Shown here piece by piece: positions 957 through 42,704 of a stretch of DNA of 43,708 nt. The position numbers and the translations under genes were made by a program. This DNA comes from Caulochytrium protostelioides (Eukaryota; Chytridiomycota; Caulochytriomycetes; Caulochytriales; Caulochytriaceae). The stretch spans positions 1 to 43,708 of the forward strand of contig ML014267.1 in NCBI GenBank assembly GCA_003615045.1, given 5' to 3'. Below the pieces are notes generated by a model. That model did no database searches. It was given only the letters and a program-made list of their open reading frames with translations, and was not told the DNA's origin. Position 1 is the stretch's first letter. The number at the start of each line of letters is the position of its first letter.

Positions 957-3299
957 TTACCGGTCGGGACCCGCCAGCCGCGGCAGCGGCAGCGAGCTGC
1001 CTTCCCGGGGATTGGACGGCTCGGTCGGGGTCGCCGCCGCAGGTGCCGAGGACGAGGACGACGATGACGACCATCCTTCGAAGCCGGGCTGCAGCGAGGA
1101 AAACCAGTTCGCGATGCGGTCCGTGTTCGGCATGAGCACCATTTTGGTCCCGGCTTCGCCGGGCTCGCGCGCATACGCGGTCGCCGACGGTGCCACAAAT
1201 TCAGGGTTGCGGAACGCGCGGTGGTGGGCGCACACGTACTTGGTGAGCGAGGGCCAGTCCTTTTCACGGCACGCCGCGGCGCGCTCGGCTTCGCAGTTAG
1301 CCAGCGCGATGTCGAACATCCCCGAAAACGCGTGGGTGTTGAGGAAGGCGAGCAGCGGCGGGCCAAACTCAAAGGCCGTTGGATACTGCACCATCAGCTG
1401 GTAAACGCAATCCAAGTACTGGCTGATGATGGGTGCCGACTCTTTGGAGTCCACGGGTGTGTAATCCAGAGCCAGCGCGGCGGTTTGCGTGGTTTGCTGG
1501 CCGCTCAAGCTGAGCGGCGTGTGCTCGGCCGCCGATGCCGGGGTGTAGGACATGACCGGATCGGGCGATTCCGTCGTGTGCTTGTCGCGATCGTGCTGGG
1601 ACAGATGGCTCTGCGGACCATACCCGGACCGCGGCGACGCCACGCTCTCGGTGCTTTGTGTGTTGACCGGCGAGGTCATGGCGTAGCTCGAGGGGCTGCG
1701 CGACGGCGACGGCTTGGGCAAGAAGCGCGAGGCCAGCGCTGACCAGCCAGCCGAGGTGGTGAGCGCGCGGGCGCTCGAGACGGCGGCAACGGCGGCTTCA
1801 CTGAGGGAGGTTGGGCCCGCACTACTCGACTCGCGCGTCACGTCTGACGCTGAGAGGCCCATGGCCTGCTGGAACATGCTGCCCCCCGTCTGGTACGTGC
1901 CATCCGCAGCAATGGTCAGTGTCACGTGGGAGACTTCCGGACGTTTCGTCAGGAGGCCGCCGCGATCGCGGAATTTGTGGCCAAAGCTCGCCCATTCCTT
2001 CTCGAAGAGTACCATAAAGCCGCGAGTCGTGCGGTAGAACGGATCGGCACACAGCGCGGCGAGGGAGCAGAGCTGGGCGGTGCGATCCCATCCGTCGGAG
2101 CAGTGCACAAGCACGTGGCGCTGATGCTGAATGGCGCTGACCATGAAGCGGGCGCCCTCGAGGATCGTGCGGATATGTTTGGTCCAGCCGGTTCGCGCGA
2201 TCATCCCGTGGATCAGCGCCTCGCTGTCCCGGGAAGCGGGCCGGGGCCCCGCGGGCCCGGGGGACTCGTGCTGCGCCACGCTGCGCTGCTCGCGCCGTTC
2301 ACAGAAACATGGGTGGAGAGCGTCCAGCACGCGCAGATGCGTGTCGCGCACCACGTGGATGTTCTCGATCCCGAGAAAGTGCAAATCGCACTCATACAGA
2401 TCGGCGTTTTCGGTCCCGGCGCCCATGGCGGTCTGGCCTAGCGCATTGGCCTGGGGCCGCGCATCCAGAATCAGGTCGCGGGAGCCCCGGGGCGGGGCCT
2501 CGCTGGGACGGGGGCCGCGCCGGAGATGGCTCTGGAAAATGGCTTTGACGAGCTTCTCATCCTGGATCGAGCGCTTCATCTGGAGCCCGACAAAGGGCTG
2601 CGCGGACCGCGTAATGGACGTGCCATCGGGATGGACGTAGCTGAGCACGGGGATGCGGCACTTGGAGCGGAAGGCGCCCGCGTGCTTGAGGACATTGTCG
2701 CTGAGCCGCGCCGGCACGACAAGACGGTCCGGATACGTCGGGGCGAACAGGAACGCCGCGTTGATCTGTGACATGCGCCAGCCCTCGGCGTTCATGGCCG
2801 CATGCGCCGTGAGCGACACGCCCTGTCGCCGGAACTCGCGCTCGGCCACGTAGCCCGAGTGCGCCCAGCGCGCCGCCGCGTCGGCGTCGGCGTCGGCGTC
2901 GGTGTGACGGTGCGGAGGCGTGGTCCACGCCGTCCTGCCGCCCGCGACCACGCCCATTGCATCATCGAAGGGATCGTCGACGCCGCGGAGCGCCGCGAGC
3001 ACCGGGTGGCCTGCCGCATGCGAGGCGACCGAGTCGTAGGCCGGCGATTGGATCAGCCGGCCGACAAACGCGTCGCCGTCGCTCGACGCCATGTGGAGCT
3101 GGAAGAAGCGCGCGTCGCGAGTGACGAAGTGCAGCGTGACACGGCCGAACTGCCGCGAGGGCCGGTCCGCGGGTCCAGGCCCTGAGGGCGGCGGCGTCGT
3201 CGGGGGCGCCCCGTCGTGCAATGAGTCCGCCGACCGCGCCGACGCGGGATGCGGCGCGGCCTGCGCGCTGCGCCACCCCAGAAAGGGTCGGCGTTTCAC
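957..3299 (-). CDS. Myotubularin-family phosphoinositide phosphatase
   Basis: 780 residues. Family knowledge: myotubularins are CX5R-type phosphatases that remove the 3-phosphate of PI3P and PI(3,5)P2 on endosomal membranes. The catalytic P-loop HCSDGWDRT is at about residues 399-407, with Cys and Arg both present, so the enzyme should be active. Upstream are the conserved WRMSQIN (about 174), YPDRLVVP (about 189), SKCRIPVLSY and QPFVG blocks; downstream are LFEKEWASFGHKF (about 431) and QYLDCVYQL (about 627). Two things are odd. A Ser/Thr/Pro-rich insertion of about 160 residues (about 456-619) splits the domain after the P-loop region, in frame. The N-terminus begins in what looks like the end of a GRAM/PH domain (VTLHFVTRDARFFQLHM), so a 5' exon may be missing; a CGGCAG possible splice acceptor lies just before this block. 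A (DA)n run at about 134-141 is microsatellite-encoded. It faces away from MBF1. Confidence 0.9.
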   Translation of the reverse strand: MKRRPFLGWRSAQAAPHPASARSADSLHDGAPPTTPPPSGPGPADRPSRQFGRVTLHFVTRDARFFQLHMASSDGDAFVGRLIQSPAYDSVASHAAGHPVLAALRGVDDPFDDAMGVVAGGRTAWTTPPHRHTDADADADAAARWAHSGYVAEREFRRQGVSLTAHAAMNAEGWRMSQINAAFLFAPTYPDRLVVPARLSDNVLKHAGAFRSKCRIPVLSYVHPDGTSITRSAQPFVGLQMKRSIQDEKLVKAIFQSHLRRGPRPSEAPPRGSRDLILDARPQANALGQTAMGAGTENADLYECDLHFLGIENIHVVRDTHLRVLDALHPCFCERREQRSVAQHESPGPAGPRPASRDSEALIHGMIARTGWTKHIRTILEGARFMVSAIQHQRHVLVHCSDGWDRTAQLCSLAALCADPFYRTTRGFMVLFEKEWASFGHKFRDRGGLLTKRPEVSHVTLTIAADGTYQTGGSMFQQAMGLSASDVTRESSSAGPTSLSEAAVAAVSSARALTTSAGWSALASRFLPKPSPSRSPSSYAMTSPVNTQSTESVASPRSGYGPQSHLSQHDRDKHTTESPDPVMSYTPASAAEHTPLSLSGQQTTQTAALALDYTPVDSKESAPIISQYLDCVYQLMVQYPTAFEFGPPLLAFLNTHAFSGMFDIALANCEAERAAACREKDWPSLTKYVCAHHRAFRNPEFVAPSATAYAREPGEAGTKMVLMPNTDRIANWFSSLQPGFEGWSSSSSSSSAPAAATPTEPSNPREGSSLPLPRLAGPDR

Positions 3300-4530
3300 A
3301 TGGTGGAGGGTTGCCAGAGGAATCTGGAGATCCGCCGCGTCGTCCCCAGATCGGCAGGGTGCGCCGGTTCATACCGCGAGCCGCGAAACATCATTGTAAC
3401 CGAGGGTGAGCGCTCAATCGTTGTGCGACGCCGTGTCCGGGTTGGCGGACGCGGAGCATGGGGCATCGTGCACGGTGTTCGGTGGTCGATGACATCCGCT
3501 CATGGGTGGTCATACCTGGGTGATTTTGGCATTGGGCGCGGTGTGGACCAGCACGTGCGGATACCACTGCAACGTGCCGACCCGCGTCACGTGCCATGTC
3601 TCGAGCGTTACGTCTCTCGCCGTCTGCCCAGGCGCATGGTGGAGATCGGGACGTGGACCGGTGCCATGGGATCAAGTCGCATCGTATCGCATCGCATTGC
3701 ATCGGTTGGCATTCAACGGGATGAATGCCACATCGAAACATCAGGCATCGAAAGTCCAAAGTCAAAGCCGTGTGAGTCTAATCATCTTTTCATTCCGACA
3801 GCCGACAGCCGACTTCAGCTCACTGCATCGTTATCGCCCGACTCGTTGTTCGCGCGAGGGCGCGGGAAGAGAGAGCCTGGGCTCGGGCCGACAGTAGGCG
3901 CAGGTTCCTACCGGGCAGAGCAGTGCCCTACCTCAAGCGGCTCGCCCGTGAGCGGAAGGTCCATCGCGGCGGCACGGTGACGGCAGCAGCAGCAGCGGCA
4001 GCGGCGATATCGACAGGGGGGCGAGCACCAAAGGCGGTGAGCGCGCAGGCGGCGACAACGGTGACGGCGGTGACGGCGGCGGCGGCGACGAGCGGCTCGG
4101 ATCCGTGGGAGCGGCGGCGCAGCCCGTCGATGCTGTGGGGTGGTGGGTTCAGCCCGCGGAGTCCGTAACCGCTGACCGAAGGTTTCGAAGGAAATGGGCT
4201 CGGGTGTGGTGGGACGGCGGTCCCTGCGCACACGCGCGTCGGACGCAGGCACCCATGCGCCGCGCAGCGAGGCCCATCCCAGCATCCAGCCCGCCGCTCC
4301 TGATCAGGACCGCCGTCCCGACCGCCGTCTTGGCCGCGCCCAGGCCTGGCTGGGCTGCTCGCTGGGCGCTGCTCCGTCGCCGGGGGTTCCGCTCGTACGT
4401 CCGGTGTGCACCCAGCGGCCTCCGCCGCGCCGTGCAGCGCGGCGTCACGGCACGCGGTCGCGTGGGCCAGATCGGCCGTGGCGCATTGCAGCGCCGCGGG
4501 GCCGCCGGGCGGGGCTGCGAAGGAAGTTCA

Positions 4531-4567
<37 letters not shown>

Positions 4568-4895
4568 GCCACGTCTTCGTGTGCCACAGCCGCGAGGGTG
4601 TCGACGGTCGATATCGGTCGATATCGGTCAGGGCCGCCCGTTGTCTCTGCAAGGAAGGGGTGACCGCGCCGCCGTCAGCATCGGCAGCATAGACCCATCC
4701 ATCGTTGGCGACCTCGGATGGCGCCTGCCACGACGATCCCATCCACGCGAAGCTCGCGTGATGCGAAGCCGTGGTGCGGGGGGATCGATGGCATCAGGCA
4801 ACCCGCAGATCACAGGTGATCTTGGTCGGTATCATCGGCATCATAGACGTCGAACCCACGGCACGATACGACACGACTTGTGCCGTCGTTATGAT
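3300..4895. other. Intergenic stretch, no gene recognised
   Basis: No domain or conserved protein is recognised on either strand; ORFs of up to 260 codons are stop-poor GC-rich frames. It should contain the promoter of the minus-strand myotubularin gene: two CACGTG palindromes lie at 3552-3557 and 3588-3593, about 250-290 bp upstream of its start. A degenerate GCATC pentamer run is at about 3676-3703, a CAG/CGG-rich run at about 3982-4005, a CCG run at about 4532-4567, and a duplicated GATATCGGTC at about 4609-4628. Confidence 0.6.
4532..4567. repeat. (CCG)n trinucleotide run
   Basis: An almost perfect run of about 12 GCC/CCG triplets outside any supported gene. Similar runs inside genes of this window encode poly-Gly (in the adaptin) and poly-Pro (in the TACC protein). 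Confidence 0.9.
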
Positions 4896-6967: not shown

Positions 6968-9900
6968 TTACGGCTCGTCGTTCGGCTGGCCGCGTGCACT
7001 GGTCGCCCGTGGTCGGCGCGACGGCAGGCGGCTCGGCAGCGCGGCTTTGGTCGGCGTGGCCGGCCGGATGCGTTTTCGCGAGCCCGAGAGCCCGGCCGTC
7101 GTCTCATCCGGCGTGAGTCGGTGCGCCGCCGCGTGCGTCCCTTCCTCGCCGATCGCCGATTGCCGGTCTTCCTCGTCCAGGGCCAGCAGATCCGGTCCGA
7201 CCTCGGGGATGTATCCTTCGGCAGGCGCGACCGGACAGACCGCGGCCGCCACCGCGGCATCGGTGCCGGCGATCATGCCGTCGGCCATCAGATCGGACGG
7301 CGCCGACGGCGGGGGTGACGGGCGACGCGTCGGCGTCGCGGCAGATGACGACGGCGCCATCGCGACATCGACATCGACATCGACAGCGACGGCGACGGCG
7401 CCATCTGCCGCGGCCGCCAGGGCTGGCGAGGCCGGTTTGGGGAGACCGGCCGCATCGGCGGGATCCTCTGGCTGATGGGGTGGGGGCGTCGTGGTCGCCG
7501 GCTCGCCCCCGCCGTGGTACGCTTGCTGCCACGTGTCGAGCCGTGAGCCGGCGGCCCGGAATTTGGCGAGCAAGGTCTCATGATCCTCGGTCACCGGCCA
7601 GGCTGCCGGAGGCGCGGTGGCGGGCGGCCGTGGGGGCGTCGTGCCGGTCGCCGGCGGGGCGGCCGCCAGCGCCGTTTGAGCGAGCGTGTGTCCGGCCGCC
7701 GGGATCGTGCCGAGAACCTGGGCGGCGGAGAACGCGTTGACGGCAGCGCGACCGTCGGCCGCATACTGGCGCGACTGCTTGAGCGACCGCGTGAGCTGGT
7801 TTTGCGCCGCGGCGCGCGATTGCAGCGTGGACTGGTGCGCCTCGACGAACGCAGCTGTCGTGGCCGTGAGCGACTGGTCGACGCCGGCGATCTCCGCTTG
7901 AGCGGCGGCGAGGTCGGACCGGTTCGCAGCGGCTACGTGGTCCCATTGCGCTTGCTGCGCCTGCGCTTGCTGCTGCAGTATCGTCTCGCGGCGCTCGGAC
8001 TGCTCTGCATACGCACGCGAGAGCGTCTGTAGCTGAGCGCGCGACGCCACGAGCGACTGCTGCGCCACCTCCACCACGTGGCTGGTGACCAGCTGGTCCA
8101 TGCGGGCGGTCTCGTCGGCGGCCAGCTGCGCCTGCAGCGCAAGCGTGTTGTCGGCGTCGCGGACACGGTGGTCGTACTGAGCGCGCACCGTCGCCTCCAT
8201 GTCGCCCAACCGCGCCACCAGCGCCGCCGCCTCGCGTGCTTCGCTGGTGCAGAGCGCATCGACCATCGACGCGATCTGCGCCATCATGTGCTGCTTGCGG
8301 GCGGCCAGGCCGTCCTGATGCTGCTGAACGGCAAGGCGCATCGCCTCAAGCTCTGCCAGGGCGGCATCGCGCTGCGTCTGGGCACGGTCCTGCTCGTCGC
8401 GCCGCCATGCCTGCCACCGCTCAGTATCGACGGTCTGCTTCCATTCGCTAAACTCCGCCACGGCCTGCTGGGTCGTGCGCTGCAGGGTCTCCGTCTTCTC
8501 ACACAGGGCGTGGTAGGCGGACACGGTGCCCCCGTACAGGTCGGTCGTGGCCTGGTCGAACGCGCGCATCGTCTGCACCAGCTCGCGATGCTGCGCCACG
8601 CCCTGCGCGCAGTGCTCGTCCACCTGGCCGTGATGCCGCGTCAGCGTCGCCATCACCGACCGCGTCAGCGTCTCGCAGGACGTCTTCAAGGCGGTCTCGA
8701 GCTCGGCGAGACTGCCCGCTTCGGCGATTTGCAGCGATTGGTCGTCAGCGGCCCACTGGTCTGCGGCGGCACCAAGTAGGCGGTCTGTCTTTTCGAGCAA
8801 CGCAGTCTGCGACTGCGAGAACGCCTCCGTCTCGCCGCGCATGGCCTTTAAGTGCGCGTACATGCGGGTCCGCATGGCGTCGAAGCGGTCGTGGTGGTCG
8901 CGCACGAGCTGCGACTGCGCGGCGAGCTTGTCGTGCAGCCGGTGGATCTCCGCCACGCGACGCGTGAGCAGCGTGTTGAGCTCGTGCGCTATGGCGTCGA
9001 GCCGCTTCTCGGCCGCCGCGTGCGCCACGACCAGCGCTTGCCGCTCGACCAGCTGGAGATCGCGGGCGCTCACGTCCGCGCGCGCCGCATCGAGTGCCGC
9101 CCGGCTGGCGTCGACGTCGGCTTGCGCGGTCGCGAGCTCCCGGACGGCCTGCTCGAGCCGCTGGGACTGCTGCTGGCACTGTGTCGTCAAGCGCGCCAGC
9201 TCGTCGGCGCGGTCGTTCTGAGCTTTCTCGAGCTCGGCCAGGCGGTCGCGATTGGCCTGCGCTTCGTTGACCAGATGCTTATAGTTCTCCGAGGCGAGGA
9301 AGACGCCGTTCTTTTCGCGCGTGGCGTGCAGATCCGCCTTGAGGCGCTCGATCTCGCTGATGTACTCGCGGATCAGCGCCTTCTTAGTCATCTTTTGGTT
9401 GATTTCGGGCTTGTTGCGGATGTTTTTGGCGCGGTGTGCGTAGTCCAGCGTGCTCAGCGTCTCGTCGAGGCTGCAGCGGGCTGGCGAGATCGCGGCCAGA
9501 ATGCAGGTCTTTGTCCGGCCGCCGAGGCTGTCCTGGAGCAGGCGCGTCAGCTTGCTTTCGCGGTAGGGCACGTGGGGGCTGCGCTCCACCAGGGCGTTGA
9601 TCACGCGGCCCAGCGTCAGAAGGCTTTGGTTGATCATGCCCGCTTCTTTAGCACGGCGGCTCTCGGCGCCCGACCGCCCAATGTTCTCGGAGCCTGCCAG
9701 GTCCACGAGGTTGAGCTTGCCCACCTTCAGCAGATCCTCGCCGTCGGGCGTCGCTTCCTTGATGTGCACGGTGATGGAGAAAATGCAATGCGACCGACTC
9801 GAGCTCTCGTTCATCTTGGTGGACGCCATCTGGCGCTTGCTGCTACCGCGATGCATGATCTGGATCACGTCATCGACGTTCTTGACAATCGACTCTTCGA

Positions 9901-10453
9901 GACCCTGAATCAGCACGGAGCCCTTCCGCGAAAAATCTTCAAAGATGCGCAACTTGCGGAAGTCGGGGTCATCGGCCGACAGCAAGTCTTTCAGCTCCTC
10001 GTTGTAGAGCTCGATATAGGAAACGCGGACCGAGTACTCGGCGGTTTCGCTCTCGAGGCGCTGGAAGAGATGCGTCAACGTCCGCGGAATGATGCCGGCA
10101 TGCTCGCCCGTGATGTTCTGGAGATCGCCCTCCATACTGTACGTTTTGCCGGCGCCGGTCTGGCCATAGGCAAAGATGGTGCAGTTGTAGCCCATCAGCA
10201 CCTCATCGAGAATCGGCGAGACGACTTCGTAGAACACATGCTGCTGCGACGCCTCGGGGCCAATGACCTTGTCGAACGTGAAGGTCTTGGTGTCGCTGCC
10301 ATTGTACCGGACCTGAACTTCGCGTGACCCGCGCACCCCCGAGACCGGGTTGACGACGATCTGGCTGTTGTCGCGGATCTCGCGTGGGTTGCGCGGGCGG
10401 ACGCGGACCACAATCGTGATATTTGCCTCTTTGGGCAGATCTTGCGACATCAT
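6968..10453 (-). CDS. Kinesin-5 (BimC/Eg5/Cut7 type) mitotic motor
   Basis: 1161 residues, single exon. The N-terminal motor covers about residues 10-350: P-loop GQTGAGKT at 97-104, switch I NESSSRSH at 215-222, switch II LVDLAGSEN at 249-257. The neck region NKPEINQKMTKKALIREY followed by EIERLKADLHATREKNGVF is diagnostic for the kinesin-5 family. A long coiled coil rich in Ala, Gln and Glu occupies about 360-950 and should form the bipolar tetramer. The tail is low complexity, with a DV repeat encoded by a GACATC microsatellite near 7365-7385, and ends in a basic stretch containing ATPTKAALPSR; I see no clear canonical BimC box. Role: plus-end-directed sliding of antiparallel spindle microtubules. 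The start was chosen because MMSQDLPKEANITIVVRVRP matches the usual short leader before the first motor strand. It is convergent with MBF1 and divergent from the secreted protein gene. Confidence 0.96.
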   Translation of the reverse strand: MMSQDLPKEANITIVVRVRPRNPREIRDNSQIVVNPVSGVRGSREVQVRYNGSDTKTFTFDKVIGPEASQQHVFYEVVSPILDEVLMGYNCTIFAYGQTGAGKTYSMEGDLQNITGEHAGIIPRTLTHLFQRLESETAEYSVRVSYIELYNEELKDLLSADDPDFRKLRIFEDFSRKGSVLIQGLEESIVKNVDDVIQIMHRGSSKRQMASTKMNESSSRSHCIFSITVHIKEATPDGEDLLKVGKLNLVDLAGSENIGRSGAESRRAKEAGMINQSLLTLGRVINALVERSPHVPYRESKLTRLLQDSLGGRTKTCILAAISPARCSLDETLSTLDYAHRAKNIRNKPEINQKMTKKALIREYISEIERLKADLHATREKNGVFLASENYKHLVNEAQANRDRLAELEKAQNDRADELARLTTQCQQQSQRLEQAVRELATAQADVDASRAALDAARADVSARDLQLVERQALVVAHAAAEKRLDAIAHELNTLLTRRVAEIHRLHDKLAAQSQLVRDHHDRFDAMRTRMYAHLKAMRGETEAFSQSQTALLEKTDRLLGAAADQWAADDQSLQIAEAGSLAELETALKTSCETLTRSVMATLTRHHGQVDEHCAQGVAQHRELVQTMRAFDQATTDLYGGTVSAYHALCEKTETLQRTTQQAVAEFSEWKQTVDTERWQAWRRDEQDRAQTQRDAALAELEAMRLAVQQHQDGLAARKQHMMAQIASMVDALCTSEAREAAALVARLGDMEATVRAQYDHRVRDADNTLALQAQLAADETARMDQLVTSHVVEVAQQSLVASRAQLQTLSRAYAEQSERRETILQQQAQAQQAQWDHVAAANRSDLAAAQAEIAGVDQSLTATTAAFVEAHQSTLQSRAAAQNQLTRSLKQSRQYAADGRAAVNAFSAAQVLGTIPAAGHTLAQTALAAAPPATGTTPPRPPATAPPAAWPVTEDHETLLAKFRAAGSRLDTWQQAYHGGGEPATTTPPPHQPEDPADAAGLPKPASPALAAAADGAVAVAVDVDVDVAMAPSSSAATPTRRPSPPPSAPSDLMADGMIAGTDAAVAAAVCPVAPAEGYIPEVGPDLLALDEEDRQSAIGEEGTHAAAHRLTPDETTAGLSGSRKRIRPATPTKAALPSRLPSRRPRATSARGQPNDEP

Positions 10454-20690: not shown

Positions 20691-21693
20691 TGGCAGAGCG
20701 AAAGAAAGAGTAGTGGCATCTGGTCGAGCACGGGGGCGGCATCACGGCCGGAACGAACGGACCATTGCGTCAGGAACATAGAGTCGGTCACTCGCGTGAA
20801 AGCTTCTCGCTTCCCCGCTACACCGCCGCTCCGTTGCTCGTCGTCTCTCGGTGCATCGCTATCGCCTCACGCATCGTGTGGTTTCGCCCCAATCCGCATT
20901 GATGCGAGTGTACATTATCCGCACCCCCCGCTTCTCGGCCCTCTCGACGGCTTGCTTGTGTGACTCCGTCGGTGTTCCCCGCGCACGGCGCCTCATCCGT
21001 GTCTGCCGCGGACGCTCACCCCGCACGAGTCCTCCGGCCGCCGTGCCGTCGACCCCGGATCGTGACCGTCCACACGGGACAGTTGCTGCTGCTCGTGGTA
21101 CCTATTGAATACGCTGATCGCCACAAAGATACCGCGTCCTTCCTATCGCCGATCGCTGACTGGATTCCCGGTTGAGCCCCGTCTCCGCTGGCCGCGGCGC
21201 GTTATTTTTGGTCATTCAAACGGCACCGGTGGTCCTCTGGCGGTTTCGGTCGCTTCTCAGATTCGGCTCGTTGCCACCGTCCGTCCAGCTCCACGTGGCG
21301 CTGCCTCGCCGTCGCGTTCAGCCGCTGCCGCTCGTGGCAGCTCGAGTCCGCGTCGCCTGCTTAGCACGTGCTCGTCCGTGATTGACGGCGTCAAACCCTC
21401 CCACACGGGCCTCACGGGCCCTGTTGCAGTGCGTCCAGGATCACTCCGCCGTTGCGCCGATCGGATCGGATCGCCGTGGCGACGCAGGAGCGCCCGCTTC
21501 CCGGCACCGCCCCTTGAACCGGGTGGCGTGCGGGCGATCAGGCGCCGCCGGGTGCTCTCGATCGCGACCAGCGCCAGGCTCCTCGCGTCTTCTCGTGACG
21601 GCGCGGCGTCTCCGTGCCAACTCCGGTGACGGTGGCCCCCGCCGCATCTCGAATCACCGGTCTCGGCGACAGCGACTCCCGACGCTCGCCGCC

Positions 21694-23502
21694 ATGAGTG
21701 CTTCGACGCGCCCATCGCGCACGTCGCCACCGGCGTCCCAGGCGGCGTTCGGCAGCTTCGGCGCACCGTCGGCGACGAGCGGTCCCAAAATCCTGCGGCC
21801 CGCCGACTCGACCATGACGCTGATCGACGGCGATGCCGGCCCCCCGCCGATGCTGCTCAGCGACGGGAGCGCGCACACGCTCCAGCCACTGCCGCCCGCC
21901 ACGGCGCCCAACGCCCTCCACGGCGCCACGCCCCGCGGCTTCTCCCGGCACCGCCTCCACCCGTCGCCGGCGCTGCTCGCCGGCGCTCCTGCCGCGCCGG
22001 GCGCCCATGCCGCCTCGCCGGGCTCGCCCCAGATCGGCATCGATATCAGCTACGACGCGTCCTACGGCTCCGAAGATGCCGTGATGACCCATGCGCCGCC
22101 GCCACCGCCGCCGCCGCCGCCGGCAGCCGCGCCGTCGTCATCGTCGCTGTCGGACGGCGGCTGGCGGCCCGCGCGCGCCATCACGTACGGCCACGCGGGC
22201 AACGCCCCGCGGTCCGGGTTCACGCCGCATTCCAGCACGGCGTCCTGGCAGGCCTCGGCTGATGCCGCGGCGGCGGCCGGCGCCACGGGCGCCGATGCGG
22301 CCGGGCCGGCGCCGACGTCCTTTCTGGCCAAGCTCGCGCAGCTGAGCCACGTTCCGTCGACCCTGGCGCTCACGCCGTCGCGCCATGCGTCCATGCTGCC
22401 GCCGCCGGTCGGCCGCGCCGACAGCGACAGCGACTCGATGCACGACGACACGAGCGACGGCGGCCGCGACGCGCGCGAGACCGCGACCGACCCCGAGGAG
22501 GAAGCCTCCGAGATCGTGATCCGCCGTGACTTGCTGGGCGCGCTGGACGGCCCGGACGCGAGCGCCGTCGGGATGGCCTCCATGGCGACGGCACGTGCCG
22601 ACGACCACGACCACGACCACGACCATGACCGCTTTGACCTGGACGCGACGCTGGAGCTCGGGCCCGACCGCCAAGCCGCCCCGTTCCGCCGCAGCACGAG
22701 CGGCCCCTCCGATCCCCTGCGCGACCGGCCCACGCCGCCGCCGCCGCACCACCACCACGACCCGCAGCAGGAAGACAGCGCGATGGAGCTGGCCTCGGAC
22801 CAGCCGGTGCTCGACTCGCCGCCCCTGCCCGCCAAGCACGCCGTCCGCCATACGCCCGACCGCGAGCGCCTCCTGCAGCGCGGGCGTGACGCCCGCGACG
22901 CGCCTCCGCCTCCGGCGATGCCGGACCTGCCGGCGCACCCCGTGGCGCACCACAGCGCGCCCGTGACCGAGCGGCCCGCGTGGCTCCGCCGCGGCTCGCC
23001 CACGACCGGCCGGTCGAGCCCCGACCCCGCCGTCGCGAGCGCCCTCAGCGGCGCCGCCGCGCGGCCCCGCGATCACCGTGGCGCCGCCACTCCGCACGCC
23101 CCGCTTCCGGCGACCCACGCACCGCGTCCGGCCACGAGCTCGCCCCTCCCGTCGGTCCCGTCGGTCCCGTCGGTCCCGTCGACCCGCCGCGCCTCGCCAG
23201 CGATGGCCACGCTGCGCGCAACCTCCGTCGATGGCGGGCTCGACCGCGACGCCGCCGCCGGCCCGTCGAGCGGCGTGGTCCCCGCGAGCAGCCCCAGCGT
23301 GCTCGCGCCCCATCTGGCGGCCCGACCCCGCGTGAGTCCGCGCACCCTCAGTTCGACGGCGCTCCTCGGTCTCGGGTACGGCCACGCCCAGCCTCGGAGT
23401 CCCTCCCTGACGGCGACCACGACGGCGGCCGACCCGGGCGAGGCACGGGAGGCTGCGCCTCGGGCCGACGGCCGCCCGGTTGCAGGCTCGAGCGCAGGCC
23501 TG

Positions 23503-23534
<32 letters not shown>

Positions 23535-24381
23535 ATCGCCCCGCATGGGCGCGGCGCTGCCGGCGGCCGTCGACCCGCGCCACGCTACGCCGCTGTCGCT
23601 CGCGACGTCGTCGTCGACGCCCGCGCCGACGCTGCGCTCGACGCAGACGTCCATGACGCCCGTGGCGCCCGTGTCGACCGCCGATGTCTGGCTCTCGCCG
23701 GCCGTGCCCGGCGCGCACGTGTTCACCCAGGCCGACCTGGACGCGGTGCGCCGCGAAGTGACGGCGCAGTTCGAGAAGCAGCTGGACTTTGCGCAGCTGG
23801 AGGCGACGGCGCTCGTCGAGAAGGAAAAGGCGTCGGCGGCCGTCGTCGCGGACATGCGCGGCGTGCTCACCGAGTGGGAGGGCGCCATGATGGCCATGAT
23901 CAAGGAGAAGGAAGGGCTCGTCGCCGAGAACGACCGCCTGCGCGTGCAGCTGCAGCGCATGACCGAGCGCCACCAGCAGGAGCAGCAGGAGCACCAGCTC
24001 GCGCAGACGAAGCTGAAGCGGCTGCATGCGGACTTTGAAGCGAGCCGGGCGCGCGAGGCGGAGCTGCGCCACACGGTCGACCAGACCGCCGCGCATCTGC
24101 AGAGCACAGAGACGCGCTACATTGCGCTGAAGAACCAGGCCGAGGCGAAGCTGGAAGCCGCCAGCGCGGAGATTGCGCGGGTCCAAGCGACGGCGGCCGC
24201 GGAGCGCGAAGAACGGCTCGCCGGCCTCGAAAAGGAGCGCGCGGCGCTGCGGGCCAAGATGTCGCGCCTCGAGATCGCTAACGCCGGGCTCGAGAAGTCG
24301 ATCCAGACCAAGGCCGAGGAGAACCTGGAACTGACCCGCATCTGCGACAGTCTCCTTGCCCAAATTGACGGCACCGCATGA
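21694..24381 (+). CDS. TACC-domain microtubule/spindle-pole protein
   Basis: 895 residues from the ATG in GCCGCCATG at 21694; an in-frame ATG at 21382 exists but the added part looks like leader sequence. Residues 1-676 are disordered, with Pro, Ala and Ser runs, an (HD)n stretch, a VPS repeat and a GA repeat. Residues about 677-895 form a long coiled coil with the TACC pattern: FTQADLDAVRREV, EWEGAMMAMIKEKEG, RYIALKNQAEAKLEAA, and a conserved end IQTKAEENLELTRICDSLL. TACC proteins (Alp7 in fission yeast) bind XMAP215/TOG polymerases and target them to spindle poles and microtubule plus ends. Its 3' end lies 95 bp from the convergent dynactin p27 gene; both proteins belong to the microtubule system. 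Confidence 0.88.
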
Positions 24382-26049: not shown

Positions 26050-27372
26050 ATGATGGCGACCACGGAGCCGCTTGGCGGCACCGCTGCCGCCTGTGTGCCC
26101 CAGACCACCGCCAAGGCGCCGAGTCCGAGCAATGACACCATGCCGGATCCCAGCGCCTCCTCCGCGTCTGCCGCGGTCGCCACCGATCCTGCTCCGCAGA
26201 GCGAGAACGACAACGACGACGACGACGATGTTGATTTCCTCGACTCGGTCCTCGACAACTTCCATATGGAGCCGTCGGCACCGGCTGCCGGCGACGAGAC
26301 ATCATCAAGAAGCGCCGCCGCCGCGGCCCCCTCGGCCGACGAACGTGAGGCGGGCGGCCTCCCGTCGCAGCTCGCCGACGACGCCCAGCACCTGGACGCG
26401 GACGCGTGGCGCTCGGCGCTCGAGCAAGCGTTCGTGGCCGAGGGCGCCGATCCCGGCGCCGCCTCCTCAGCGCCGCCTCCCGCCGCGGATGCCGCCGTAG
26501 GCGCCAAAGCGGCGCCCAAAGACTTCCAGACGCTCATCTCGTCGACGCTCTCCAATCTCAAGTCGTCCCAGACCCGAGCGGACCAGCGCGCCGCGGTGGC
26601 CGCCTCCGCCTCGGCGGCGGGCCTCGGTGGCCTCGAGGGCCTCGAGGGCCTGGAAGGCCTCGGCGGTCTGGAGGGCCTGGCCAACATGAGCGAGCCAGAG
26701 CTCGAAGCGCTGCTCACCAAGATGGAGGCGCTGATGGGCGGCGCGGGCGGCGGCGCGGGCGGCGCCGACGGCGCCGACGGCAGCGACGGCGCGGGTCTCG
26801 CCGACGCCCTGCTCGAGCAGTTCATGACCCGCGACCTGCTGTATGAGCCGCTGAAGGACCTCGCGGACCGCTACCCCGCGTGGCTCGACGCCCACCCGGG
26901 CGCCCCGAGCGCCGCGCCGCCGGGCACTGCGGCGCAGCGCGACGACCATGCGCAGCGCACCGAGCAGCTCCGGATCATCCGCGAGATCCTGGCCGTGTTT
27001 GACGAGGCTGACGACGCCGACAGCGACGGCGGCGACGACGGCCAAGGCGATGGCGGCGCGGCCGACGGCGCGGCGCCGGCGCCGGCCAAATCAGCGCGGC
27101 AGGCGCGGCTGGGCGCGCTCATGACGCAGATGCAGGCCTGCGGCGCGCCGCCTGACGACTTGCTGGCCTCCGTGACCGACGGCGATGCGAAAGGCGACGC
27201 CAGCGGCAACGGCGCTTCATCCACCAAGATGCCGGACCTGGCGGAGCTTGAGAAGCTCGCCGGCTCAGACGGGCTGGAGAACATCCTTCCGCAGCTCCTC
27301 GAGAGTCTGGAGGGGATGGAAGGGATGGAAGGCGTCGCCGGGGGGAGCAAGGAAGGGTGCTCTCTCATGTAA
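26050..27372 (+). CDS. PEX19: Peroxin-19, peroxisomal membrane-protein chaperone
   Basis: 440 residues, single exon. An acidic N-terminal segment DDDDDVDFLDSVLDNF (about residues 56-71) matches the PEX3-docking helix. The middle contains the helical PMP-binding region (KDFQTLISSTLSNL, then LEALLTKMEALMG, TRDLLYEPLKDLADRYPAWL, RTEQLRIIREILAVFD). The C-terminus is a farnesylation CaaX box, CSLM, as in other PEX19 proteins. Role: cytosolic receptor that binds newly made peroxisomal membrane proteins and delivers them to PEX3. Gly-Leu-Glu repeats and a poly-Gly/Ala stretch near residues 195-245 are an unusual low-complexity insertion. The 3' end is 257 bp from the convergent GPI-type gene. Confidence 0.95.
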   Translation: MMATTEPLGGTAAACVPQTTAKAPSPSNDTMPDPSASSASAAVATDPAPQSENDNDDDDDVDFLDSVLDNFHMEPSAPAAGDETSSRSAAAAAPSADEREAGGLPSQLADDAQHLDADAWRSALEQAFVAEGADPGAASSAPPPAADAAVGAKAAPKDFQTLISSTLSNLKSSQTRADQRAAVAASASAAGLGGLEGLEGLEGLGGLEGLANMSEPELEALLTKMEALMGGAGGGAGGADGADGSDGAGLADALLEQFMTRDLLYEPLKDLADRYPAWLDAHPGAPSAAPPGTAAQRDDHAQRTEQLRIIREILAVFDEADDADSDGGDDGQGDGGAADGAAPAPAKSARQARLGALMTQMQACGAPPDDLLASVTDGDAKGDASGNGASSTKMPDLAELEKLAGSDGLENILPQLLESLEGMEGMEGVAGGSKEGCSLM

Positions 27373-33078: not shown

Positions 33079-34625
<1,547 letters not shown>

Positions 34626-37624: not shown

Positions 37625-40600
37625 TTACGAGGCAGCGGTGAGCCCCTCGGCTGGAGTCAGAACGCTGACCGGGTCCGCGAGATGCTGCGCTTCGCGCGTT
37701 GGAAGGTCGAGGGCCCGCCAGACGCCGTCCCAGGTATCATCGGTCGCCTCCGGGAAGCGTCCTTCAATGAGTGCGCGGCAGCGGTCGATAAAATAGTAGG
37801 AGACCGGGTCCTGCGTCAGCTGCACCGCTTGCTTGAAGTTCGCGATCGCGGCGCCCCAGTTCTGCGAGCGGTACTCCGACAGGCCCAGCTCGAAACACAT
37901 TAACGAGGTCTGCCGCTCGTGCGACAGCTTCATACCAGCGAGACCAACCACCTCGTGTAGCACGACTTGGGTGTCCGTGCCGTGTATCTGGATAATGTCG
38001 ATCTCGCGGAAGTGGAACTGATCCTTCAAAGCTGTGCTAGTCGCAGCGTCAACGAGAATACTCGACCGGTAGAGACGATTGATCTGTGAGAGATACTCGG
38101 CGACCGGCACCGCTTCACCAAAGATATGCAGATCCATGCGCATGTGCTCCTGGCCCAGAAACCCCGCCATGACGGCACTGGAGGCCACGCCATACGTGAT
38201 CAGGGCGCCCTCCTGCGACTGCTGGTACATGTACGCGGCCTGCACCGCATCCACAATGCCCTGTCGCTCGGGCAGCATGCCGAACACGATGCGGGCCACC
38301 CCGCCGTCGTAGGCCGTCAGAACGCCCTCGTAGGCCCGCACGTGGTCGAAAAAGGGGTTCCATTGGGCATTGAGGTCTGTCAGCAGCGACCGGTCATGCG
38401 CGTCCGTCAGCATATCGCGCGGCAGCGACGCGACCAGCACCCCCGCAGCAGGCAGCAGCCGTGGCCAGTTGCCCTGTGGATGGTGCGGCTGCAGGTACCG
38501 CGTGAGCAGGCCCCGTGCCTGTTTGACCGGCGTGATGTCGTCCAGCACGAGGAGCAGCCCGGACGTCGTCGCGAGCGCGGTGCCGGATTCTGACGGTTCC
38601 TCGGAACGATTCGGCGGCGACGTGGCCACGGCCGCGGCCGCGGCTGACGCCACTTTGCCCGTACTGCCGGGCTTCGACCTGACTGCAACGCAGATGGTGC
38701 GGTAGTGGACATGGTGCGCTTGTCCCCGGATAGTGAGGACCGCATTGGGCCGGAAGATGCTTTGCCCGTCGGCGAGCGAGGTGGCCAAATCAGTAATGAG
38801 CAAAGGGTTGTCGCCGAGCCACTGACTGTACGGGATCATGGATAATCGGCCGAGCGCGGTCTCGTCCAATCCCAGCCGGTCGGCGCCGGTCGCCTTCACC
38901 AAGCAGCCCCGCTGATCCAGCACAAGCACGACACTGCCGGCCGCATCGGCCATCAGCTGGTTTGTGGCTGCGTTCCACGTCGTCTGCGCCAGCTCCTCCT
39001 GCAGCGCGCTATACAACAACGAGCGCTCAATCGCGGCGGCGGCCAATGCGGTAAAAGCGCCCAAGAGACTTTCGTCTTCCTTCTTGAAACGCGTGCCCTC
39101 CGGAAGCTTATTGATGACCTGGCAGACGCCCATAATCTGCCCGCTGGCGTCGCGCAGCGCCATGCACAGGATGGTGCGCGTACGGAACCCCGTGCGTGCA
39201 TCCACGGAGCGGTCGAACCGCTTATCATTGTACGCGTCCGGAATGTTCAGCGTGGTTCCCGTTTGGGCCACGTGACCCGCGATTCCCGCGGTCATGGGAA
39301 TCCGGATCTGCACCGACCCGCCAGCCACCGTCGACCAGAGCTGCTGCTGCTCGCGATCGAGGAGGAACAGCGTCGACCGCTCGGCCTGGAGCAGCTCTTT
39401 CGCGGTCTGCATCACGGCGGTGAGCATGCCGCCCGTGTCCATATCGGACGACATCAGGTTCGCGGTGCCCAACAGCATCTGGATGTTGGCGCCATTGGAC
39501 TTGGAGGCGCCGGAGACCTCGTTAGACGTTTCAGCAATAAAGGCATCGGACGACCCAACGAGGGTTCGCCACAACCGCGCTACCAACCCGATGAGGAGCT
39601 CGTCCTCAGCGTCAAACCGCGGTGCCGATACGTCGTCTGCCTTGTTGATGACCTCGAGCATCCCGACGACGCGGGCTGTATCTTCGTCCCATACCGGCAC
39701 CGCCAGCAGCATGCGCGGCTCGGTCATTTCATAGACCATATCGAGCTCTAATGGCCAGCTCTCACTCATCAGATGGATATTGAACGTGTTGGCCACGTGG
39801 TTGCTGCGCACGGCGTTGCTGCCAAACAAGCGGTTGCTCGGAAAGCTGGCCTTTTCTTCCTGCCAATTGCTGTCCAACACGATCCAGTTGTCGGTCATCT
39901 CGTCATACACGTAGATGGTGCCCCACTTGGCCTGCGTCATGTCCAACATGGCCTGGAGCAGCACTGAGGCGCTGCGCGAGGGATCTTTCGAGGCGGACGC
40001 CAGGCTGCGCAGCAAAACGTGAAGCTTGTTGCAGCGCTCGGTGAGGAAGTGGTTCATCACCTCGCTCGGCGACGTCGACGGTGGCAACGCCTGGGTCGGC
40101 GCGGCCTGGTGGTACTCGCCGCCCGGATTGATCAGCCGCAGATACATACTCGTGTTGAACGGCAGCTTTGCGGCGGCCTCCCCGGCAGCCTCCATCCGCC
40201 CGACGTCCGCCGGCCCGCCCCGGTGCTGGAGCTTAGTGTACGTCGTAGCCAGGGCTAACCCCGCCGGCGTCTCGGGCACAGCCGGCGGCCCCACGGTCCG
40301 GCCCATAACATGCGTCTTGAGGAGATCGAGCTGTTTGGAGGAGCTGCGCACCACCAGGCCTTTGAGGAGCTGTGCGCGCTCGCTGTCGGTGAGCAGCGCA
40401 TACGCGGCCAGCATATTCTGGATCTGGACAAAGCTGTCGGCCGCATTGGATGCGGGCGCCACCACAGGCGCCGCCGGTGCCGCAGCCGCCACTGATTCCT
40501 CAAACGGGGACACCGGCGGCGCTAAGTGCAGCCTCAGTGTCCTCGCGTCGTGCACGCCCGGCCTTCCTCGGCCCTCGGCAGTCGGCGGCGCGTCATCCTG

Positions 40601-40795
40601 ACGGCTCGGGCCGAGCTTCGTGGACGTTCGCGCATTGCCCTGGCTCGACGGTAGCATCGGGGGCTCGAAGAGCCCGACCGTCGCGCGTTTCGGCGACAGC
40701 GACGTGGCGGATGGGATGGCTGGGATGGGCGTACTGGGGTTGACGCGGGGCGCTGACCCGAGCCTGGTGGGGCCGCCCCAAGATCCGGGTTTCAT
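37625..40795 (-). CDS. GAF-GAF-PAS-cyclase-like-TPR signalling protein with degenerate cyclase domain
   Basis: 1056 residues, single exon. Disordered N-terminus about 1-115; helical region about 118-250; GAF-A about 255-415; GAF-B about 440-600; PAS-like domain about 607-755; class III nucleotidyl cyclase-like domain about 783-950; one TPR-like helical pair about 965-1015 (CFELGLSEYRSQNWGAAIAN). Both GAF domains carry the NKFDE motif of cyclic-nucleotide-binding GAFs: N384-K385 ... F394xxxD398-E399, and N562-K563 ... F570xxxD574-E575. The order matches cyanobacterial CyaB1/CyaB2 adenylyl cyclases. By my alignment the two metal-binding Asp of the cyclase are replaced (AGVLVASLPRD, Ser790 for Asp; LTAYDGGVARIVFG, Gly832 for Asp), the adenine-specifying Lys is Ala828, and the transition-state Asn is absent (GEAVPVAEYL). 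A catalytically dead, cAMP/cGMP-sensing regulator is the likely reading; alternatively it pairs with an active partner. CACGTG lies 261 bp upstream. Confidence 0.85.
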   Translation of the reverse strand: MKPGSWGGPTRLGSAPRVNPSTPIPAIPSATSLSPKRATVGLFEPPMLPSSQGNARTSTKLGPSRQDDAPPTAEGRGRPGVHDARTLRLHLAPPVSPFEESVAAAAPAAPVVAPASNAADSFVQIQNMLAAYALLTDSERAQLLKGLVVRSSSKQLDLLKTHVMGRTVGPPAVPETPAGLALATTYTKLQHRGGPADVGRMEAAGEAAAKLPFNTSMYLRLINPGGEYHQAAPTQALPPSTSPSEVMNHFLTERCNKLHVLLRSLASASKDPSRSASVLLQAMLDMTQAKWGTIYVYDEMTDNWIVLDSNWQEEKASFPSNRLFGSNAVRSNHVANTFNIHLMSESWPLELDMVYEMTEPRMLLAVPVWDEDTARVVGMLEVINKADDVSAPRFDAEDELLIGLVARLWRTLVGSSDAFIAETSNEVSGASKSNGANIQMLLGTANLMSSDMDTGGMLTAVMQTAKELLQAERSTLFLLDREQQQLWSTVAGGSVQIRIPMTAGIAGHVAQTGTTLNIPDAYNDKRFDRSVDARTGFRTRTILCMALRDASGQIMGVCQVINKLPEGTRFKKEDESLLGAFTALAAAAIERSLLYSALQEELAQTTWNAATNQLMADAAGSVVLVLDQRGCLVKATGADRLGLDETALGRLSMIPYSQWLGDNPLLITDLATSLADGQSIFRPNAVLTIRGQAHHVHYRTICVAVRSKPGSTGKVASAAAAAVATSPPNRSEEPSESGTALATTSGLLLVLDDITPVKQARGLLTRYLQPHHPQGNWPRLLPAAGVLVASLPRDMLTDAHDRSLLTDLNAQWNPFFDHVRAYEGVLTAYDGGVARIVFGMLPERQGIVDAVQAAYMYQQSQEGALITYGVASSAVMAGFLGQEHMRMDLHIFGEAVPVAEYLSQINRLYRSSILVDAATSTALKDQFHFREIDIIQIHGTDTQVVLHEVVGLAGMKLSHERQTSLMCFELGLSEYRSQNWGAAIANFKQAVQLTQDPVSYYFIDRCRALIEGRFPEATDDTWDGVWRALDLPTREAQHLADPVSVLTPAEGLTAAS

Positions 40796-41460: not shown

Positions 41461-42704
41461 TCAAAGCTTACTCACATTGAAGGTGAAACCTTGCTTCTTC
41501 AAGCGGTCCACCAGCACGTTGCCGAATGCGGCAGAGGCCGTGATCACACCAGACTGCTTAAGCGGGATGGGGCCCTCATAGGACTTGAGCTTATCCGTTT
41601 CCAGCGCCAGCAACAGACCCACTTCGCCCAGGATCTTAGCGGTCTGCGAGTAACCGGGGTCGCCGTTGACGTTAAGCTCGGTGACGTAGCGAACTTCAGT
41701 ATCGGGTGACGAGCCGATGGTGCGGGACGAGTATCCCCCGCTGCGCTGCGCCTCCTCCGACGGCCCGCTGCCCGGCGGCATAAGATAGGACAGCAGCGGC
41801 CGCAGGATGCTGCTGCCCGATGTGACGGCGAAGGCGAGAATAAACAGGTTGTTGATGATCGCCTGCAGCAGGCTCGGAGTGCGCCGATACGCGCTCCATT
41901 GGAACTTAGACCCATAGTTGTTGAGGAAGGCCGAGCGAAAGACGAGGGGCAGATCGATACTCTCCATGACGTACAAGCTGTTCCAGCCACCCAGAATCGG
42001 GTCGCGGGAAAGCATCGATTGCTGCGGCTTGGCCACCGCCTGGATGTTCGTGCGCTCCTTCTCGGTCAGGTAGCCATAAGGCCCCGAGGGCTTCACCCCC
42101 GCAATCGATGCGATCGTACCGCCAGACATCGACGCCTTGAGCTTATGCACTGAGCAGCGGGTCGCGCCAAGCTCTTGGCCGTTCTTGCGGTACTCCTCAG
42201 CCAGCAGGTACACCGCGAGATCCGACGGGACGCTGTCGAATCCGGCCTGGGGAATGATACGCGTACCGTTGCGCTCCGCCTCTTCATGCAGCGTGCTGAC
42301 GACATGCTTGTAGAACTCACCCTCGCCCGTCAGATCCGCATAGTGGGTGTTCTGGTCCACACAGGCCTTGACCAGATGGTATCCATACTTGGCGTAAGGC
42401 CCCGCGGTACTGATCACGGCGACCGTCTGCTCTGCTAGGCGCTCCATGTCTTTCTGGTTGAGTGAGTCGCCCACAATGAAACCGCACTTGTCCTTGACGG
42501 GGCCCGCCGCCATGGACGCATGCACCATCTTGAGCTTATCCAGACTACGTCCGGCAAGCGCCAGGCGGAGATGCTCGGGCGCCTCGCGCGCCAGGTGCTT
42601 GGCGACGAGCTGGCCGGTAAACCCGGTTGCGCCCCTATGTCAACGAGAATTCAGCACAACATTAATGATTCCCATTCACAACGCGACGATGCATAGGGTG
42701 TCAT
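41461..42704 (-). CDS. Saccharopine-dehydrogenase-like oxidoreductase with C-terminal SKL
   Basis: The main exon (41461-42634) begins with the end of a Rossmann glycine motif, GATGFTGQLVAKHL, then LALAGRSLDKL, AVISTAGPYAKYG, LVKACVDQNTHYADLTGE, IIPQAGFDSVPSDL and ASMSGGTIAS. This is the SCCPDH-like / trans-acting enoyl reductase family, a lipid-droplet or mitochondrial oxidoreductase group of uncertain substrate. It is preceded by ACATAG, a splice acceptor, and a possible 45-nt intron (42635-42679, GTGAAT ... ATAG). The presumed first exon (ATG at 42704) encodes the first strand only if one base is missing near 42692; the uninterrupted frame there (PPYDTLCIVA) has no Met. The gene may thus be frameshifted, or the base is a sequence error. 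The protein ends SKL, a peroxisomal PTS1 signal. A GTGAGT overlaps the SKL codons, so a further 3' exon is a less likely alternative. Confidence 0.82.
42635..42679 (-). other. Possible 45-nt intron of the oxidoreductase gene
   Basis: GTGAAT ... GACATAG. It joins a hydrophobic first beta strand to GATGFTG in phase. It is very short, and the start codon upstream is out of frame by one base, so it is tentative. Confidence 0.5.

Follow-up and report, generated by a model that had tools for sequence, protein, structure and literature searches.

A CyaB-type protein with an apparently dead cyclase domain in the chytrid fungus Caulochytrium protostelioides

Background

What becomes of a signalling cyclase that no longer has the residues for catalysis? 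The question is raised by an open reading frame (ORF) at 37625-40795, minus strand, of contig ML014267.1 of Caulochytrium protostelioides (assembly GCA_003615045.1). Positions are those of the window, the whole stretch of 43,708 nucleotides that was analysed, and all features of this gene lie on the minus strand. From its ATG start the ORF runs uninterrupted to encode 1056 amino acids, with the CyaB-type order GAF-GAF-PAS-cyclase-TPR. From alignment and predicted structures we infer that the cyclase domain is very probably catalytically dead. Less firmly, we regard the protein as probably a CyaB-type cyclase of likely bacterial origin that still folds and has been kept as a non-catalytic, dimeric regulator responsive to cyclic nucleotides.

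Pseudokinases are well known. Stand-alone class III pseudo-cyclases, outside a complementing pair, seem hardly to have been described: no paper was found under "pseudocyclase" (unhyphenated), and broader multi-term literature searches gave no such case by title and abstract start. A literature search on C. protostelioides and cyclases found no paper, and chytrid CyaB-type proteins yielded none by title and abstract start, with PMC5005798 as a possible exception. A former enzyme may here serve as a signalling receptor or scaffold.

Loss of the catalytic residues

The class III cyclase-fold domain occupies about residues 779-955 (37931..38461) and was recognised from Pfam, alignment and models. 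Its catalytic residues were read as a hexad in the order D, K, D, T, N, R, that is, first metal-binding Asp, purine-binding Lys, second metal-binding Asp, purine-binding Thr, transition-state Asn and Arg. The reading was taken from an alignment of 36 rows: 18 chytrid-type (16 distinct), one EukProt and 17 prokaryote-type. The Caulochytrium protein reads SAGHPY, with 0/6 canonical residues. The metal-binding Asp are replaced by S790 (codon 38426..38428) and G832 (38300..38302), the purine-binding Lys and Thr/Asp by A828 (38312..38314) and H890 (38126..38128), and the transition-state Asn and Arg by P897 (38105..38107) and Y901 (38093..38095). S790 was placed from structure, as the sequence aligners differ there, and the other five by alignment. 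The lysine of the VKGK motif is gone as well. The original prediction had listed S790, A828, G832 and a lost Asn, all of which are borne out, and H890, P897 and Y901 can now be added. Its picture of a pseudoenzyme that keeps the cyclase fold is likewise upheld by the alignment and by two AlphaFold2 (AF2) models, the fold being predicted for monomers.

The first metal position depends on the method. Sequence-only MAFFT alignments place D794 under the first metal Asp, and in the 36-row alignment a later Asp of the protein falls in that column. In both AF2 models, which differ in length, beta-1 ends at residue 790 (model residues 56 and 551), with D794 beyond the strand. The start pairs from VIA-align, 40/380 in 1azs, 41/241 in 4p2f and 42/443 in 5oyh, also bring S790 to the first metal Asp, which we take to be D396 in AC5 C1 (1azs) and D256 in Rv1625c (4p2f); for RhoGC (5oyh) it would be D457, judging from the family spacing and from E497 in the title of 6aoa. 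For CyaC (1wc1, 2bw7) the start pair, 42/1004, sets A789 rather than S790 opposite the presumed metal ligand D1017. Reading the position from start pairs assumes a gap-free beta-1, and rows with a much earlier start, such as 7yzk and 1wc4, were excluded for their gaps. On these models the placement of S790 should be good to about one residue.

D794 was set aside as first metal ligand on two grounds: the end of beta-1 at S790 in both AF2 models, and the start pairs, most of which give S790. D830 lies two residues before G832 in the same hairpin and is disfavoured as a ligand, if still conceivable, since the other catalytic residues are gone. Either residue in the metal site had been named beforehand as the result that would refute a dead enzyme; at the first metal position the structure models put S790, with D794 beyond it.

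Domain architecture

A run of 1056 open codons has a chance of ~3e-13 at this base composition. The G+C content by codon position is coding-like in every domain, with values in the cyclase part of 0.77 at third positions (GC3) and 0.39 at second positions (GC2); in the 500 bases upstream it is flat, unlike the ORF. In Pfam the protein has two GAF stretches (E 1.8e-23). Guanylate_cyc reaches E 7.8e-4 and 19.5 bits in the protein, below the cut-off of 21.9 bits, and 22.7 bits, above it, in a six-frame search of the genome. The top PDB sequence match is 1ykd, the tandem GAF of Anabaena CyaB2 (E 3.2e-43). The predicted presence of a CyaB-type architecture in a fungus is thereby supported.

A long helix is predicted at residues 572-617 (38945..39082) as the link from GAF-B to a PAS-like domain, which lies at about residues 618-755 (38531..38944) and had been noticed from the sequence. 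The strand and helix order of the AF2 model is PAS-like there, with a low-confidence insert, and PAS families are precomputed in Pfam for the prokaryote-type relatives; Pfam gave no match to PAS in the protein itself, and PAS is not among the families listed for the chytrid or EukProt relatives. The predicted TPR-like end is present as a C-terminal helical module (about residues 959-1026; 37718..37921), whose helices are followed by WDGVW at 1022, with weak Pfam TPR matches (E 0.025). Among prokaryote-type rows, 11/17 end in WxGxW, three others have WDGx with Y or H, and the last three have neither. We use the WxGxW-ended module as a mark of CyaB-type proteins on the strength of the relatives aligned here, with no published definition behind it.

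No Pfam match to Ras-association, leucine-rich repeat (LRR) or PP2C domains was found in the protein, so that it differs, as had been stated, from the Cyr1-type layout, which belongs to a separate gene on contig C53. In the N-terminal residues 1-230 (about 40106-40795), a short stretch, SERAQLLKGLVVRSSSKQ, resembles one in the chytrid relatives; the region is otherwise without a named domain.

Ligand site of the GAF domains

Both GAF domains, GAF-A (about residues 268-415; 39551..39994) and GAF-B (about residues 446-600; 38996..39460), carry the complete NKFDE motif that had been claimed for them, now located residue by residue (N384, K385, F394, D398 and E399; N562, K563, F570, D574 and E575). 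The protein had been proposed as a cyclic-nucleotide receptor. That proposal fits one of the two domains better than the other. The NKFDE motif makes no contact with the ligand, yet it is needed for binding in the proteins tested (PMC11977230), and its presence does not make receptors of both domains. In CyaB2, GAF-B contacts cyclic AMP (cAMP) via R291, T293, I308, D356 and N359 (PMC4411481), with which R473, T475, V490, D532 and T535 of the Caulochytrium GAF-B align; R473, T475 and D532 are identical, and V490 and T535 differ. In GAF-B the pocket Arg is present in 36/36 aligned rows and the Asp in 35/36, the remaining row being gapped there. In GAF-A the equivalent of this Arg is W291; Arg occurs at that place in 0/18 chytrid rows, in 15/17 prokaryote-type rows and in the EukProt row, although the alignment is loose in this region, above all for P0022 and P0024. 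GAF-B is therefore the likelier ligand site, as judged from residues kept and lost.

Distribution in chytrids and bacteria

Chytrid fungi, a single EukProt entry and prokaryote-type proteins supplied relatives of similar length and order; for the prokaryote-type ones, GAF, PAS and Guanylate_cyc are precomputed in Pfam. Bacterial names are attached to P0003, P0016, P0019 and P0022 among the 17 prokaryote-type rows, and the named relatives belong to Wallbacteria, Chloroflexota and Methylomirabilota. All named matches listed by three protein searches came from chytrids, the EukProt entry or bacteria, with none from other fungi; two of these searches scored 7992 and 7995 candidates out of more, so that absence from other fungi is not established. 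Near copies P0028 and P0037 were dropped from the distinct count and from the retention test below. The alignment leaves out P0030 (a shorter Batrachochytrium salamandrivorans entry), P0032 and P0040 (no cyclase listed), P0015, P0023, P0025 and P0043-P0045. A gap at the Thr position of P0026, and gaps in GAF-B and cyclase of P0035, are perhaps gene-model faults.

The Caulochytrium protein is no isolated case and stands at one end of a chytrid series that runs from intact to fully eroded. The hexad is complete in the EukProt row and in 16/17 prokaryote-type rows (P0013 has Asp for Asn), and in 4/16 distinct chytrid-type rows: Blyttiomyces, Chytridium lagenaria, Dinochytrium and Phlyctochytrium. 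In the remaining 12 it is degenerate, and the Asn is absent from all of them. Besides SAGHPY, these hexads read DKEVSK in Podochytrium, NKEITQ in Chytriomyces MP71, EKEVSQ in Chytriomyces cf. hyalinus, DKDSLR in Entophlyctis, DKD-QR in Polyrhizophydium, NSDTQR in B. dendrobatidis, DKDTLR in B. salamandrivorans, DKDTAK in P0029, DQDQKE in Globomyces, DESSEQ in Boothiomyces and DQDQKD in Gorgonomyces. For example, B. salamandrivorans keeps 5/6 residues, Entophlyctis four and B. dendrobatidis three; Caulochytrium alone stands at 0/6. A non-acidic residue occupies a metal position in four rows (Caulochytrium, B. dendrobatidis, Boothiomyces and Chytriomyces MP71). Being short of the Asn alone, the B. 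salamandrivorans protein may keep activity.

Ten of the 11 other degenerate rows are near full length; the exception is P0029, which has neither the N-terminal part nor the usual end. Compared with Blyttiomyces, the Caulochytrium protein gives 32% over the full length, with a related N-terminal region and C-terminal module, and the module downstream of the pseudo-cyclase is still recognisable at 40%. The series from 6/6 to 0/6 catalytic residues within one architecture amounts to a graded natural experiment in turning a signalling enzyme into a receptor. It also cautions against reading function from automatic annotation: one B. salamandrivorans member, for instance, is named "Guanylate cyclase", and such labels may mislead on the function of chytrid CyaB-type proteins.

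Evolutionary rates and gene tree

On a topology fixed from the sequence outside the cyclase, the distance of each domain to the EukProt row was compared between the four intact and the 12 degenerate chytrid rows. The values were 1.08-1.11 vs 1.80-2.65 for the cyclase, 1.81-1.96 vs 3.09-4.57 for PAS, 0.82-0.89 vs 1.09-1.68 for GAF-B, 3.24-3.26 vs 3.45-4.52 for GAF-A, and 2.39-2.44 vs 2.62-3.82 for the C-terminal module (the maximum being P0029, with its abnormal end). The speed-up in degenerate rows is thus greater for PAS and cyclase (about 1.6-2.5 fold) than for GAF-B (1.3-2.0) or the C-terminal module (1.1-1.6).

The trees took in 8/17 prokaryote-type rows. Without the cyclase, the 12 degenerate rows lie on one side of a weak branch (support 69/57, 97% of 200 bootstrap trees), and the intact four group together (73/38). 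In approximately unbiased (AU) tests, a tree that keeps Podochytrium and both Chytriomyces among the intact rows was not rejected (p 0.41), while trees that place Caulochytrium (p 0.018) or the Rhizophydiales-like rows (p 0.03) there were; these groups were named after the tree was seen, and long branches are in play. The gene tree alone weakly favours a single loss. By NCBI taxonomy, Chytridiales holds Dinochytrium and Phlyctochytrium (intact) as well as Podochytrium (degenerate), Gorgonomyces (degenerate) belongs to Rhizophydiales, Blyttiomyces is incertae sedis, and Caulochytrium has its own class. Entophlyctis helioformis is in Chytridiales in NCBI, yet its protein groups with Batrachochytrium. 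Chytridiales contains both forms, and the degenerate one recurs in Rhizophydiales and in the class of Caulochytrium, a spread that suggests either repeated loss or different sorting of an old pair of paralogues.

Possible functions

A regulator of the kind proposed above might work as follows. GAF-B would bind a small ligand, a cyclic nucleotide being the likeliest, and the resulting change would pass along the long helix and the PAS-like domain to a pseudo-cyclase dimer. A change in this dimer could then alter binding by the C-terminal TPR/WDGVW module or by the pseudo-cyclase surface.

An alternative, which we consider unlikely, is that the pseudo-cyclase pairs with another class III cyclase of the genome, as the regulatory half of a heterodimer, and alters the activity of its partner, on the model of the degenerate halves of membrane adenylyl cyclases. 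The genome has at least three candidates, an FHA-GAF-cyclase on contig C2, a Cyr1-type cyclase on C53 and a soluble adenylyl cyclase-like protein on C29; by eye, the C2 cyclase has the full set D, K, D, T, N, R. Several degenerate rows keep part-sites, e.g. DKDSLR in Entophlyctis. Among the rhodopsin-guanylyl cyclases of Rhizoclosmatium, two are reported to function only when paired with a third (PMC7655827). However, RGC1 and RGC2 keep residues that matter for cyclisation (PMC8815786) and so, as described there, set no precedent for a dead partner. Both the metal half and the purine/transition-state half of the site are missing from the Caulochytrium protein, so that it could not complete a shared site, and allostery alone is left. 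No CyaB-type paralogue was found in a six-frame search with three candidates scored, and pairing with the cyclase domain of another subfamily may not be feasible.

Several observations weigh against a retained cyclic-nucleotide regulator. GAF-A and PAS are poorly conserved, at 28% and 23% to Blyttiomyces. With GAF-B alone as query, the top printed PDB stretch is the GAF of an HD-GYP protein (4mcw, 123.4 bits), ahead of PDE2A GAF-B (99.0 bits) and CyaB2 GAF-B (81.2 bits). Every domain, GAF-B included, is faster in the degenerate rows, and the Caulochytrium protein is fast overall, with an end branch of 1.58; the gene could for these reasons be in slow decay. Finally, 46 cyclase columns conserved in 22 reference rows (six hexad and 40 other) were scored for retention, pooled over the 12 degenerate rows. 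The hexad was kept in 29/71 cases and the other columns in 248/467 (Fisher p 0.057). A loss aimed at catalysis was accordingly set aside, the hexad not being lost significantly more than other conserved positions, and the pattern looks like broad relaxation of the cyclase domain rather than loss of catalysis alone. In Blyttiomyces numbers, G906, F916, I960, M965, N1039 and K1082 are kept in 0/12 degenerate rows; five structural cyclase columns are kept in 12/12, those of beta-1 being unsure for Caulochytrium.

These faster rates, most of all in PAS and cyclase, the long Caulochytrium branch, the absence of a significant excess of loss at the catalytic positions, and an erosion pattern that varies row by row would also suit a relic that has been decaying from the cyclase end and has a residual role or none. 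We think this improbable. The frame of 1056 codons is intact, with coding-type GC3 through the cyclase, and the near full length of the other degenerate rows and the recognisable module after the dead domain argue the same way. Activity is known from some class III cyclases with unusual residues, and D794 or D830 might be imagined as ligands of a non-canonical site, or another nucleotide as substrate, but with D794 past the end of beta-1, S790 at the first metal Asp of AC5 C1, Rv1625c and RhoGC (A789 for CyaC), and Lys, Thr, Asn, Arg and the VKGK lysine gone too, a surviving enzyme is very unlikely.

The non-catalytic regulator is thus the reading that we prefer for the Caulochytrium protein. 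A wider version of it is tentative: chytrids may have acquired a bacterial cAMP-sensing cyclase, several lineages of which became cyclic-nucleotide receptors that signal via a dead dimer and the TPR end, giving a pseudo-cyclase family at the level of the phylum. Repeated losses are put forward because the degenerate form spans Chytridiales, Rhizophydiales and the class of Caulochytrium; a single loss, or an old pair of paralogues, would also agree with the gene tree.

Genome context

The genome searched comprises 20.9 Mb in 337 contigs, and family counts in it are lower bounds. An active CyaB-type paralogue had been suggested as a partner; the six-frame search, with three candidates scored, found only the query itself, which leaves other class III types as possible active partners. 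The FHA-GAF-cyclase lies at C2:66500-75500 (frame 1765-4878, plus strand, within the locus; 1037 aa) and is likely, from its residues, to be an active cyclase of the same genome. The Cyr1-type gene on C53 (89-9130, plus strand, within the locus) has RA-like, LRR, PP2C and cyclase domains, with a long insert that splits the cyclase match. The soluble adenylyl cyclase-like protein on C29 (407-6286, minus strand, within the locus; 1959 aa) matches the Pfam cyclase family once, shows a further cyclase-like stretch on inspection by eye and matches AAA weakly. A large GAF hybrid histidine kinase with a receiver domain is encoded on C14 (1967-8887, minus strand, within the locus; 2306 aa). At least nine matches to cNMP-binding (cyclic nucleoside monophosphate) domains and at least five to PDEase_I were found.

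Elsewhere in the window, family matches were obtained for a myotubularin-like phosphatase (957-3299, minus), a kinesin (6968-10453, minus), TACC C-terminal (21382-24381, plus), Pex19 (26050-27372, plus) and saccharopine dehydrogenase NADP-binding (41461-42528, minus); the ORF at 33543-34625 (plus) reads as actin by eye.

Comparison with known systems

Anabaena CyaB1 consists of a tandem GAF, a PAS domain and a class III cyclase, in that order. The same order is given for CyaB2, described as an active cyclase whose activity is raised by cAMP (PMC4411481). The Caulochytrium protein resembles both in domain order, NKFDE motifs, tandem GAF fold (1ykd) and the Arg, Thr and Asp of the GAF-B pocket. 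It differs in lacking all six catalytic residues and the GAF-A pocket Arg, and in its N-terminal region of ~230 residues.

B. dendrobatidis is reported to have a horizontally acquired adenylate cyclase of bacterial origin (PMC5005798). This is possibly the same gene family; the gene is described there as an adenylate cyclase, and the available part of that source makes no mention of lost catalytic residues. With the chytrid CyaB-type proteins as a whole, the Caulochytrium protein shares full-length homology, the related N-terminal region and the C-terminal module, and it is unlike the other rows in having lost the entire hexad.

RGC1, RGC2 and NeoR of Rhizoclosmatium are also chytrid class III cyclases, and obligate pairing is theirs (PMC7655827); unlike the Caulochytrium protein, they have rhodopsin sensors, and in RGC1/2 the catalytic residues are described as present (PMC8815786). 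The C1/C2 pair of mammalian membrane adenylyl cyclases shares the class III fold and includes a half without catalytic residues. Its halves are described as complementing each other (PMC8815786), whereas the Caulochytrium protein keeps no half-site.

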